Below, piece by piece: positions 4,257 through 14,346 of a DNA stretch of 27,532 nucleotides. The position numbers and the translations under genes were made by a program. The stretch lies in the IMG/VR virus record IMGVR_UViG_3300032144_000037, positions 1-27,532 of that record; one strand, 5' to 3'. How positions within the stretch are numbered: position 1 is the stretch's first letter; each line of letters starts with the position of its first letter. Under the pieces are notes generated by a model. That model saw only the letters and a program-made list of their open reading frames with translations. It ran no database searches and was not told the origin of the DNA. The DNA comes from a virus.

Positions 4257-7061
4257 ATGAGCAACCACCCCGAGCACGGGCACCCGGTGATCGGCTGCCT
4301 GGACTGCAACCAGGAGTCCGCGACCGCGGGTTTCCGAGGGAAGGAGACCACCGTGGATCTCGCCTGCCCGAACTGCGGGCACACATTCGCCGCCGAGGCC
4401 GGCCAGCCGGTGCCGGTCCGGGTCACCGAGTCCGTGGCCACTGGTCAGCCGGCCGCACCGGCCGACACGTGGCCGCTGGGCACGGCCGAGCAGGTGCTGA
4501 CCGCATGGCGTGAGACGCACCACCCCCGGGAGGCCTCCCGCTACCTGCCGGCCGCGCTCACCGAGCTGCACGACCGGATCCGCGCAGCCGCCACCGCCCA
4601 GACGGTGACGCTCCCGGACGCCGCGACCGTGGTCGAGGCGATCAACGGGGAACGCTCGAGCAACGACACCCGCGACCTGCTGCAGGTCGCACTCGAGGAA
4701 GCCGCCAAGGCTGCGGGTAGTTCCCCGTACGACTACTGCTACGCGTGGGTCCAGGACTTCACCGACACCATGGTCGTGTACCGCTCCGGCGGGAAGACCT
4801 GGCAGCGCACCTACGCACTGGCCCCCGTCGGGACGATCGGCACGATCACCTTCCTGGACGACCCGGTGCCGGTGATCGCCCAGACCTGGTACGTGCCGGC
4901 CGCCGGCGGCGACCCGACGATGCCCGCCGAAGCCGAGACCGACGTCATCATCGAGACCACGGGCCCGCCCGCAACGGCCGAGCGGGTCCGGATCCCCGGC
5001 CGGGTCCTGGAGGCCAAGGAGGACGACGCTACCGGCGGCCGGGTCTACCGGGTCCGGATCATCCAGGCCGGCGAGTCCAAGAACGGCCGGATCTACCCGG
5101 CCCAGGTCCTCGCGGCCGCGGCCTCGTTGTACGAGAACGCGAAGGCCTTCGACCACCACCGGACTCCGGAGGAGATGGCGTCCGGGACGATCCGCGGGAT
5201 GGTCGGGTACTACTCCGACGTCGCCTCCACCGGTGACGGCCTCGAAGCCGACCTGCACCTGCTGCCCTCCGCGGTGCACGCGGCCGAGGCCCTGGACGCC
5301 GCGCTCGCCGGCGAGACCGACGGCCGTGAACCCCTGGTCGGGCTCTCCCATGACGTCCAGGCCCTGTTCCGGCAGGTCAACCTCGGTGGGGCCCGGCGCA
5401 TGGAAGCCACGTCCATCGTGACCGTGAACTCCGCCGACGTCGTCGCCCACCCGGCGGCCGGCGGTAAGGCCACCCGGGCCGTCGCCGGTGGCCTGGACGA
5501 CGACACCGAGACCACGGATGACGCCGATTCCCCAACAACCCCCGCGGGCGGGCCGCCCGAAGAGATCACCGATCCAGAGGAGACTGATGTGACCGTCAGC
5601 ACCGAAGGTGTGCTCGCCGCTCTGAAGACAGCTACGCCGGAGCAGCTCGCTGCCGTCGGTCTGTCGCGGCCTGCCACCGAGACCATCACCCCGCCGGTCC
5701 CGGCAACCACCGACCCCGTCAGCGCCCGGGAGACCCTGGCCAAGACCTCGTTCCTCGGCAAGATGCTCGTCCGCTCGAAGGTGGCCGACGCGGGCCTGCC
5801 TGAGGCCGTGGCCGAGTCCCTGCTGGACGCGCTGCCCGACCAGGTCACCGAGGCCGACGTCGACGCGCAGGTCGCCTCCCTCAAGGGGGCCCTCGGGATC
5901 GCCGAACGCGCCCAGCTGGTGCCGACCGCCGCCGTCGCGGTGACCCAGGAGTCGCGGGACAAGAAGGTCAAGGCGCTGGACGCGTTCTTCACGCCCGGCG
6001 ACACCACCGGATACAACAGCTTCCGGGAGGCGTTCCTCGACTTCACCGGCGCCCGCCCGCGCAGCTGGGACGAGGACTTCAACAAGGTCATCCTCCGGGA
6101 GTCAATGGGCGGTGGGTACGACTCGGGCAGCACCGACGGGGACCGGCTGGTTGAGTCCGTGGCCAGCACCACCTGGGCCGCCGCACTCGGCGACTCGGTG
6201 ACCCGGCGCCTGGTCGCCGCCTACGCGCAGCCGTCGCTGCAGACGTGGCGGGCGATCGTGTCGAACATCTTCCCGGTGAACGACTTCCGTACCCAGCGGA
6301 TCGAGCGCATCGGTGGATACGGTGTCCTGCCGGCGGTCAACCAGGGCCAGCCGTACCAGCCGCTGACGAGCCCCACCAACGAGGAAGCCACGTACGCAGC
6401 GACCAAGCGCGGTGGCACCGAAGACCTCACCCTCGAGGCGATCGCCAACGACGACGTCCGGGCCATCAGCCTGATCCCCGACAAGCTCGCCCTGGCCGCC
6501 GCGCAGACCCTGTTCCGGTTCGTCTGGGACATCTTCCCGACGAATGCCGCGACCACGTACGACTCGACGGCTCTCTTCCACGCCACCCACAGCAACACCG
6601 ACAACCCGGCGGTGCTGAGCGACACGACGCTGGCGACCGGGCGGCGGAAGATGCGTCAGCAGGCGGCCTACGGCGACTCCTCGAACGTGCTGTCGTTCAT
6701 CCCGAAGTTCCTGGTGGTGCCGTCGGCGCTGGAGAACCTCGCGTTCCAGCTGACCGCATCGGCCGTCGCGGTCCCCGCTTCGGGCAACGCCTCGAACATC
6801 CCCAACCTGCACCAGGGTCTGCAGCCGATCGTCGTCGACTACTACAGCGACAACGACGACTGGTTCCTGGTCGCGGATCCGGCGCAGTGCCCGACCATCG
6901 AGCTCGGGTTCTACCAGGGGCAGCAGACCCCGCAGCTCTTCACCCAGTCCGACCCGAACGTGGGGAGCATGTTCGACGCGGACAAGATGACGTTGAAGGT
7001 GCGCCACATCTACGGCGGTGCTCCGGTCGAGCACCGCGGGTTCTACCGCGGCTCCAACTAG
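4257..7061 (+). CDS. fused prohead protease / major capsid protein
   Basis: One uninterrupted frame of 934 residues. Residues 1-45 hold a possible zinc ribbon (CLDC 14-17, CPNC 37-40). About 155-215 is a small beta domain. About 245-410 looks like a prohead protease of the herpesvirus-protease fold: NGRIYP (276-281), FDHHR with candidate catalytic His 300/301, and GLSHD with candidate Ser 364. An acidic, Pro/Thr-rich linker (412-445) precedes a scaffold-like helical region (446-560) and the capsid domain (about 565-934), which resembles Mu gpT-type heads (TALFHATHSNTDNP and a DWFLVADP stretch). Domain limits are estimates. Start: ATG 4257 has little Shine-Dalgarno support, whereas in-frame GTG 4353 follows a strong AAGGAG. 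An internal start at 5589 would give capsid alone. Confidence 0.85.
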   Translation: MSNHPEHGHPVIGCLDCNQESATAGFRGKETTVDLACPNCGHTFAAEAGQPVPVRVTESVATGQPAAPADTWPLGTAEQVLTAWRETHHPREASRYLPAALTELHDRIRAAATAQTVTLPDAATVVEAINGERSSNDTRDLLQVALEEAAKAAGSSPYDYCYAWVQDFTDTMVVYRSGGKTWQRTYALAPVGTIGTITFLDDPVPVIAQTWYVPAAGGDPTMPAEAETDVIIETTGPPATAERVRIPGRVLEAKEDDATGGRVYRVRIIQAGESKNGRIYPAQVLAAAASLYENAKAFDHHRTPEEMASGTIRGMVGYYSDVASTGDGLEADLHLLPSAVHAAEALDAALAGETDGREPLVGLSHDVQALFRQVNLGGARRMEATSIVTVNSADVVAHPAAGGKATRAVAGGLDDDTETTDDADSPTTPAGGPPEEITDPEETDVTVSTEGVLAALKTATPEQLAAVGLSRPATETITPPVPATTDPVSARETLAKTSFLGKMLVRSKVADAGLPEAVAESLLDALPDQVTEADVDAQVASLKGALGIAERAQLVPTAAVAVTQESRDKKVKALDAFFTPGDTTGYNSFREAFLDFTGARPRSWDEDFNKVILRESMGGGYDSGSTDGDRLVESVASTTWAAALGDSVTRRLVAAYAQPSLQTWRAIVSNIFPVNDFRTQRIERIGGYGVLPAVNQGQPYQPLTSPTNEEATYAATKRGGTEDLTLEAIANDDVRAISLIPDKLALAAAQTLFRFVWDIFPTNAATTYDSTALFHATHSNTDNPAVLSDTTLATGRRKMRQQAAYGDSSNVLSFIPKFLVVPSALENLAFQLTASAVAVPASGNASNIPNLHQGLQPIVVDYYSDNDDWFLVADPAQCPTIELGFYQGQQTPQLFTQSDPNVGSMFDADKMTLKVRHIYGGAPVEHRGFYRGSN
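4341..4355 (+). promoter_or_regulatory. strong ribosome site pointing to an alternative GTG start at 4353
   Basis: AAGGAG (4341-4346), within a longer purine run from 4336, stands six bases before GTG 4353, which is in frame with the protease-capsid gene. It would shorten the product to 902 residues and remove the first CxxC pair. ATG 4257 lies only three bases after the previous stop and has no comparable signal, although translational coupling could serve it. Both may be used. Confidence 0.6.
5576..5591 (+). promoter_or_regulatory. internal ribosome binding site for the capsid part
   Basis: AGAGGAG (5576-5582) lies six bases before GTG 5589, in frame with the long protease-capsid gene and exactly at the junction between the acidic linker and the scaffold/capsid part. 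Position and quality match the ribosome sites of ordinary genes in this window (for example 8572-8577 or 7904-7910). Confidence 0.7.
5589..7061 (+). CDS. nested major capsid protein from an internal start
   Basis: Starting at GTG 5589 the frame would give a 490-residue protein beginning MTVSTEGVLAALKTATPEQL. Its first 115 or so residues are helical and charged, like the delta/scaffold domain often fused to capsid proteins. The rest is the capsid domain. Phage heads need hundreds of capsid subunits but few protease molecules, so a separate start solves the ratio problem posed by the fusion. The strong Shine-Dalgarno site and its placement at a domain border are seen in the sequence; actual use of the start is inferred. 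The alternative is that only the fusion is made and then cleaved by its own protease. Confidence 0.65.
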   Translation: MTVSTEGVLAALKTATPEQLAAVGLSRPATETITPPVPATTDPVSARETLAKTSFLGKMLVRSKVADAGLPEAVAESLLDALPDQVTEADVDAQVASLKGALGIAERAQLVPTAAVAVTQESRDKKVKALDAFFTPGDTTGYNSFREAFLDFTGARPRSWDEDFNKVILRESMGGGYDSGSTDGDRLVESVASTTWAAALGDSVTRRLVAAYAQPSLQTWRAIVSNIFPVNDFRTQRIERIGGYGVLPAVNQGQPYQPLTSPTNEEATYAATKRGGTEDLTLEAIANDDVRAISLIPDKLALAAAQTLFRFVWDIFPTNAATTYDSTALFHATHSNTDNPAVLSDTTLATGRRKMRQQAAYGDSSNVLSFIPKFLVVPSALENLAFQLTASAVAVPASGNASNIPNLHQGLQPIVVDYYSDNDDWFLVADPAQCPTIELGFYQGQQTPQLFTQSDPNVGSMFDADKMTLKVRHIYGGAPVEHRGFYRGSN

Positions 7062-12679: not shown

Positions 12680-13276
12680 ATGCACGCTGCCGCCCGCGCC
12701 TACGCCAAGTCCAAGTTGGCCGGCCAGCACTTCCCGAGCGTGGTCGAGATCGGGGGACGGAACATCAACGGTGGGGTCCGGGACCTGTTCACCTGCGACC
12801 GGTACGTGGCTCTCGACCTGGAGCCCGGCCCCGGCGTCGACGTCGTCGCCGACGCGATCGAGTGGCGCCCGGACGAACCGGTGGACCTGGTGATCTGCTG
12901 CGAGGTCCTGGAACACGAGGCAAGGCAGGAAGAACTGATCCGGGCCGCCCTGGCCTACCTGAAGCCCGGCGGCGCCCTGCTGGTCACCGCCGGTGGCCCG
13001 GGCCGGGCCCCGCACTCCGGTCACGACGGCGGCCCCCTGGCCGAGGGCGAGCACTACGCCAACCTCGACCCAGACAACCTCCAGCGGTGGTTCGAGGCCG
13101 CCGACCTGTACCCAGCGGAGGTGCACTACGCCGCGGGGGTCTGCGACGTCTACGGCTTCGGGACCACGCCTGAGGCCGGAGGGGTTGTCCGGGGGCAGAG
13201 GTTCATCGTCGGTGAGGAAGGCTGCGAGTTGTACCTCCCAGCCGTTGACGGCACGGTGTCCGGGATACCCGCCTGA
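12680..13276 (+). CDS. SAM-dependent methyltransferase with tape-measure-like C-terminal motif
   Basis: A 198-residue class I methyltransferase. Motif I is VVEIGGR (21-27), the acidic residue ending strand 2 is D46 in VALDLEPG, and later motifs are VICCEVLEHE (71-80) and LKPGG (94-98), as in Methyltransf_11 proteins. The target is unknown. The C-terminal 32 residues are odd: GGVVRGQRFIVGEEG (167-181) followed by CELYLPAVDG repeats the motif at the end of tape measure proteins, including the one encoded here. The gene abuts the preceding stop and overlaps the glycosyltransferase (TGATG), so the pair is translated together. Modification of virion proteins or glycans is the likely role. Confidence 0.8.
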   Translation: MHAAARAYAKSKLAGQHFPSVVEIGGRNINGGVRDLFTCDRYVALDLEPGPGVDVVADAIEWRPDEPVDLVICCEVLEHEARQEELIRAALAYLKPGGALLVTAGGPGRAPHSGHDGGPLAEGEHYANLDPDNLQRWFEAADLYPAEVHYAAGVCDVYGFGTTPEAGGVVRGQRFIVGEEGCELYLPAVDGTVSGIPA

Positions 13277-14346
13277 TGCGGTGGGTGGTCGGCCAGCCCG
13301 GGCCCTCCTGGAGCGTTCACGACGTCTACGTCGGGTGGGTCGAGGCGCTGCGGCAGCTCGGCGAGGACGTCCACACCTTCAACCTGGACGACCGGCTCGC
13401 GTTGTACGACCACGCACTGATCGACATCGGTGACCCAGGCCCGAACGGTGAACTGAAGCTCCGGAAGGCCTTGACGGTCGAGCAGGCGAAAGAGCTGGCC
13501 GTGAACGGGCTTCCGGCGATGCTGTGGAAGGTCCGCCCGCAGGTTCTGCTGCTGGTGTGCGGGTTCTTCGTCCCGTACGAACTGCTCGATCACGCCCGCC
13601 GCACCGGGACCCGTGTGGTGATCATCCACACCGAGGAACCGTATGAGGTCGAGCGGGAGCTGGAGCTGGCCGCGCATGCCGACCTGAACCTGATCACCGA
13701 TCCGACCCACCTGGATCGGTTCACCGCGGTCGCGCCGACCGTGTTCGCTCCGCACGCCTACCGGCCGGCCGTCCACCACCCCGGGCCCGGCCCGGTCGAC
13801 CTCGTGTCGGATCTGGCGTTCGTCGGGACGGGGTTCGGTTCGCGCCGGTGGTTCCTGGAGCAGTTGCACGCCAGCGGCGCCCTGGACGGCCTGGACGTCC
13901 TCCTGGCCGGCAACTGGCAGGGCCTGGCCGATGCGTCGCCCCTGCGGGCATTCCTGGCCTCGGGTGACCCGGAAAAGTGTTGCGACAACGAGCAGACGGC
14001 GGACATCTACCGGGCCGCCCGGATGGGCATCAACCTCTACCGGCGTGAGCACGACGACAACGCCGACGCCGCCGGTCTGGCGATGGGCCCGCGTGAGGTG
14101 GAGATGGCCGCGTGTGGACTGTTCTTCCTGCGCGACCCCCGCCCCGAGGGCGACGCGGTGTTCCCGATGCTGCCGACCTTCGCTGGCCCGGGCGAGGCCG
14201 CCGAGCTGATCCGCTGGTGGTCCACGCACCCCGACCAGCGTGCTGCTGCCGCCGCGATGGCGCGAGAGGCGATCGCGGACAGGACGTTCGCCCAGTCCGC
14301 AACCAATCTGCTCCGGCTGCTCGGCCGGCAGCCGGTCACCACCTGA
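13276..14346 (+). CDS. CgeB-like glycosyltransferase (GT-B type)
   Basis: A 356-residue protein with the features of the CgeB/Glyco_trans_1_2 group. A GT-B N-terminal half has short Rossmann strands (PQVLLLVCGFF at 89-99, RVVIIHTEEPYE at 113-124). A middle segment reads DLAFVGTGFGSRRWFLEQL (179-197). The donor-site motif GPREVEMAACGLFFLRD (271-287) carries the acid expected to hold the sugar nucleotide, and the C-terminal helix pattern includes HPDQRAAAAAMAREAI. It would transfer a sugar from a nucleotide donor; acceptor and sugar are not shown. Placement within morphogenesis genes and overlap with the methyltransferase suggest glycan decoration of virion proteins. Confidence 0.82.
   Translation: MRWVVGQPGPSWSVHDVYVGWVEALRQLGEDVHTFNLDDRLALYDHALIDIGDPGPNGELKLRKALTVEQAKELAVNGLPAMLWKVRPQVLLLVCGFFVPYELLDHARRTGTRVVIIHTEEPYEVERELELAAHADLNLITDPTHLDRFTAVAPTVFAPHAYRPAVHHPGPGPVDLVSDLAFVGTGFGSRRWFLEQLHASGALDGLDVLLAGNWQGLADASPLRAFLASGDPEKCCDNEQTADIYRAARMGINLYRREHDDNADAAGLAMGPREVEMAACGLFFLRDPRPEGDAVFPMLPTFAGPGEAAELIRWWSTHPDQRAAAAAMAREAIADRTFAQSATNLLRLLGRQPVTT

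Follow-up and report, generated by a model that had tools for sequence, protein, structure and literature searches.

The DNA studied is a 27.5-kb record of an uncultivated virus with 69% G+C (27,532 nucleotides, hereafter the window). The left part of the window carries, in this order, a terminase gene, a portal gene, a small gene and a long fusion ORF. The features of this ORF lie on the plus strand. Further along, at positions 12680–14346, ORFs judged by eye to be methyltransferase-like and glycosyltransferase-like lie within the head-tail gene run, directly ahead of the major tail protein.

The fusion frame, its domains and its two candidate starts

Between ATG 4257 and the stop at 7061 there is one uninterrupted frame, which encodes 934 aa. 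A reading made from the sequence alone had described a single 2.8-kb frame in which a prohead protease is joined to the major capsid protein. The single frame was confirmed, the length of 2.8 kb being that of the frame as counted from 4257. The start taken in that reading was GTG 4353, from which the ORF (4353..7061, 2,709 bp) encodes a fusion of 902 aa. A strong Shine-Dalgarno (SD) sequence precedes this codon (ggAAGGAGaccacc GTG, -8.8 kcal/mol), and GTG 4353 is likelier than ATG 4257 to be the real start. The N-terminus of the fusion (4353–4430) contains a CxxC pair (CPNCGHTF), which is zinc ribbon-like with a weak Pfam match only.

The fusion protein matches PHROG 29592 over nearly its whole length (E 4.9e-232; residues 86–931 against profile positions 38–887 of 893; residue numbers count from the ATG 4257 frame). 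The major capsid domain of HK97 fold occupies residues 636–931 (6162..7049). This half matches Pfam PF25209 (Phage_capsid_4) with 157 bits against a cut-off of 27, and it also matches solved HK97-fold capsids in the PDB. A Pfam search with the protease half gave no match, and this half was therefore modelled alone with 40 aligned sequences, which gave a pLDDT of 94. The best solved match of the model was the T4 capsid assembly protease gp21 (5jbl_B; Z 13.6, 145 residues, 2.9 A), followed by herpesvirus assemblins with Z of 5–7. The prohead protease domain, residues 238–402 (4968..5462), is thus predicted to have the T4 gp21/herpes assemblin fold. His 301 (5157–5159) and Ser 364 (5346–5348) are invariant in the 40–42 aligned sequences and are usable as putative catalytic residues. 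The protease and capsid domains named in the sequence-only reading were in this way both recovered.

The protease is followed by a low-confidence and probably disordered linker (residues 401–449, 5457..5603; pLDDT below 50), the length of which varies among homologues. A scaffold (delta-like) region then extends over residues 445–619 (5589..6113). It is mostly helical, with helices at 450–616 in the secondary structure of the model, and its position suggests the scaffold role. In the full model, residues 620–635, between the scaffold helices and the capsid fold, are of low confidence too. Overall, the tripartite architecture was confirmed, with protease, scaffold region and HK97-fold capsid within one open frame.

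The SD-like motif AGAGGAG is located at 5576..5582, with a six-base spacer to the in-frame GTG 5589, exactly as the earlier reading had it. This GTG is residue 445, at the end of the linker and, in the model, five residues ahead of the first scaffold helix. The proposed nested gene (5589..7061) would encode a scaffold-capsid protein of 490 residues, and a count of the codons to the stop gave the same 490. Anti-SD pairing calculated for the 43 in-frame starts of the fusion ORF was strongest at GTG 5589 (-9.1 kcal/mol), with GTG 4353 second. Judged from this one sequence, the internal site is only suggestive. Single-sequence statistics were dropped as proof of it: 6 of the 226 internal in-frame ATG or GTG codons in the genes of the window equal or exceed it in strength, and when the ORF itself was shuffled synonymously, some strict SD and start fell into the junction window in 62 of 200 cases.

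Conservation of the site at the protease-scaffold junction

A first protein scan found one close relative (L002), in which AGGAG, a six-base spacer and ATG are kept at the junction despite a changed linker. Profile scans have since given 499 relatives in viral contigs, 80 of which were fetched, and loci from phages and bacterial genomes were added. Only one phage record, that of Microcystis phage Mae-JY22, had more than half of the fusion protein matched, as against the 499 viral-contig loci, and the window's family is therefore almost unsampled among sequenced isolates. The sequence-only reading had proposed that related phages be compared for a stop between the two genes with the ribosome site kept. 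Among homologues in which tblastn found both domains, 90 of 90 were fused in one frame and none was split; L014 and L015 are likewise single frames. No stop was present at the protease-scaffold junction in the tested homologues of the window's family, and the ribosome site was kept.

An SD-like motif with an in-frame start at or adjoining the junction is present in all 92 scored homologues, though in a few it is weak. The start codon is GTG in 63, ATG in 28 and TTG in 1, and the spacer is mostly 6 nt (39 homologues) or 5 nt (30). The tally takes the best motif of each sequence, and for this reason some sites are weak or perhaps not the true site (L094, L097, L108 and L084). The opposite case, a fusion that is kept while its ribosome site is lost, was also sought. 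It was not clearly present among the 92 fused homologues, the nearest being the weak sites of L094, L097 and L108. The distance from the conserved end of the protease to the site ranges from 11 to 50 residues across homologues, and the encoded residues vary too.

As the choice of sites had relied on these very features, it was checked by three controls. A strict motif, defined as AGGAG, GGAGG or GAGGT with ATG or GTG in the junction window, was present in 68 of 78 non-redundant sequences, and other windows of the same ORFs gave 0–13. Synonymous codon shuffles of the same 78 sequences gave 34.0 strict hits (sd 3.6, maximum 43 in 200 shuffles); the preference of the acidic linker for GAG codons explains about half of the strict hits in shuffles. 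When the junction was set by a protein pattern and not by the motif, the valine at this position was written GTG in 49 of 51 cases, compared with 42% elsewhere; in both non-GTG cases the pattern fell away from the site found by the motif. Bases at the junction are, moreover, more often unpaired than those in the remainder of the ORF (0.467 vs 0.381, p=5e-10), which means less structure at this site. In addition, 7 non-redundant homologues have the GGAG core in a shifted codon phase and encode different residues there, which argues that the nucleotides and not the residues are kept. The residues most often read through the motif are EE, KE and QE. After the homologue comparison, the internal site lies far beyond chance.

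Other protease-capsid fusions, among them the ClpP-type fusions of Fels-1, F10, mEp043 and others, also show an SD-like motif with an ATG where protease and scaffold meet, and cultured phages with the same arrangement include F10, JBD68 and mEp460. The junction motif was present in all 34 non-redundant ClpP-type frames (shuffles 21.0, sd 2.6, maximum 29). A second distant set gave 44 of 52 in a fixed window (shuffles 31.9, sd 2.2, maximum 38) and 49 of 52 in a wider one, which gained five sites that had fallen just outside; 3 of the 52 fell short of the motif criterion of the scan. Less weight can be placed on these distant sets: conservation at the junction is in part that of the protein residues, and the criterion applied was less strict. 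A single split relative was encountered, the module of the archaeal Methanoculleus virus L4768 (L027, 837–3499), in which protease/scaffold, decoration and capsid are three genes. Its protease/scaffold gene carries cAGGAGaatccagcATG at the matching junction, with an internal SD and ATG (1428). The gene order is the same as that of lambda C, D and E, which encode protease/scaffold, decoration and capsid proteins.

Readings of the junction and the proposed two products

A shell contains hundreds of capsid subunits and needs few copies of the protease, a ratio which a fused gene seems to forbid. A further initiation site for ribosomes, lying between the protease and scaffold parts, probably lets one gene yield many shell subunits and few enzyme copies. 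Direct observations are the domains and the open frame, the motif with its spacing and conservation, and the accessibility of the junction. It is very probable on these grounds that the nested start gives a scaffold-capsid protein and that the full-length fusion is the source of protease by co-assembly. Ribosomes starting at GTG 4353 would make the 902-residue fusion, and independent initiation at GTG 5589, served by AGAGGAG, would make the 490-residue protein, presumably in excess. Both products would co-assemble through their common C-terminal part, so that the shell would be built from the short form and the protease brought into the prohead by the minor full-length fusion. Inside the prohead the protease may free itself and remove the scaffold, by cuts between linker, scaffold and capsid. 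The ratio of protease to capsid would then depend on a pair of ribosome sites carried by a single message, as in lambda C/Nu3. We infer the use of the internal start, the excess of the short product, the co-assembly, the cleavage and the role of the fusion as protease source from sequence comparison.

Three other explanations of the locus have been weighed. If only the full-length fusion were made, the purine run would be a by-product of a Glu-rich linker (GAG GAG), the Met or Val codon would be incidental, and the capsid precursor would arise by self-cleavage. The predominance of EE, KE and QE across the motif agrees with this, as do the shuffles, which still place a strict SD and start at the junction in about 34 of 78 sequences. 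Yet no shuffle exceeded 43 against the 68 observed, and a linker selected as protein leaves unexplained the GTG codons at 49 of 51 junction valines, the 7 homologues with the SD out of phase over other residues, the start codon that stands behind the motif in nearly all, mostly 5–6 nt away, and the reduced structure of the junction. We regard this explanation as unlikely. The SD-like run might instead cause a translational pause between protease and scaffold that aids domain folding and involves no initiation; its place exactly on the domain boundary, within a disordered linker, is what such a pause would call for. A pause needs no start codon, however, and an ATG or GTG lies behind the motif in nearly all homologues, mostly at the spacing of 5–6 nt that is best for initiation and with the valine written GTG. 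A pause site without initiation is accordingly very improbable.

The third possibility is that protease and capsid are truly separate genes and that a stop was lost from this contig through an error of sequencing or assembly; a separate downstream gene would have an SD and start of this kind. Against this, the frame is uninterrupted in all homologues that could be tested, which come from independent metagenomes, from isolates and from bacterial genomes, and a single PHROG family spans nearly the whole protein. As one error cannot recur across dozens of contigs, the homologue comparison rules out such an origin, and we give it practically no chance of being correct.

Returning to the nested start, its conservation, if it is truly used, would solve the ratio conflict and would mean that the nested scaffold of lambda and the scaffold-capsid fusion of HK97 are joined in one gene. 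For a family that numbers hundreds of metagenomic phages, the annotated long protein would then be the less abundant of the two products, and the persistence of protease-capsid fusions would be explained. A wider statement is rather likely, with less assurance than for the window's own gene: protease-scaffold-capsid genes in general, whatever their type of protease, may be two-product genes, in which the true capsid precursor comes from a conserved nested start that annotations lack, two ribosome sites set the ratio and the co-assembling fusion delivers the protease. If this holds, the main capsid precursor is absent from databases in which a single long protein is entered.

Relation to known capsid and scaffold genes

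Nested protease/scaffold starts and three-part capsid genes are already known separately. Their combination, in which the nested product of a three-part gene comprises both scaffold and capsid, did not come up in the searchable literature; as this included few subscription journals, the negative result is weak evidence of absence. Effantin is said to have described a tripartite capsid gene in Gifsy-2 in 2010. Pseudomonas phage MD8 gp5 and its relatives also have a three-part capsid gene, and the paper on MD8 makes no mention of a nested start (PMC8508860). These genes, like the NCBIfam families NF045540 and NF045541, resemble the window's gene in that protease, scaffold and HK97-fold capsid are encoded in one gene and the capsid half is homologous. 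Their protease is ClpP, whereas that of the window is predicted to have the T4 gp21 fold.

Lambda C/Nu3 has an in-frame nested scaffold start (Shaw and Murialdo, 1980, as cited in PMC8508860), and an in-frame scaffold gene has been reported in the Mu-like phage KS10 (PMC2628397). Both share with the window's gene an internal in-frame start where protease and scaffold adjoin and a nested product with the C-terminus of the long one. In both, the nested product is the scaffold alone and the capsid is a separate gene, whereas the nested frame of the window continues through the capsid. The window's gene would thus work like the lambda C/Nu3 type but is not classed with it, because its nested frame includes the capsid domain. 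In HK97 gp5, similarly to the window, the scaffold (delta domain) is the N-terminal domain of the capsid protein; unlike in the window's fusion, the HK97 protease gp4 is encoded apart from the capsid, by a gene that ends in a stop of its own.

The herpesvirus UL26/UL26.5 pair consists of a protease-scaffold fusion and a shorter in-frame product, the scaffold without protease (PMC4498786). The fold of the UL26 protease is related to that predicted for the window's protease; the herpesvirus capsid protein is separate from UL26/UL26.5, whereas in the window's gene it is fused. A further feature of herpesviruses is that the short product comes from its own 3'-coterminal transcript and not from an internal ribosome site. 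Such 3'-coterminal transcripts are named in the title of a cytomegalovirus paper cited in PMC4498786.

The NCBIfam families NF045540 and NF045541 are named 'prohead protease/major capsid protein fusion protein'. The window's fusion scored below their cut-offs (182.3 bits vs 525 for NF045541 and 135.2 vs 475 for NF045540), and the matches span the scaffold-capsid part only. Some fusions of the window's family have extra domains: in alignment A3, DUF6582 was matched in 11 of 42 members and PG_binding_1 (peptidoglycan-binding) in 2.
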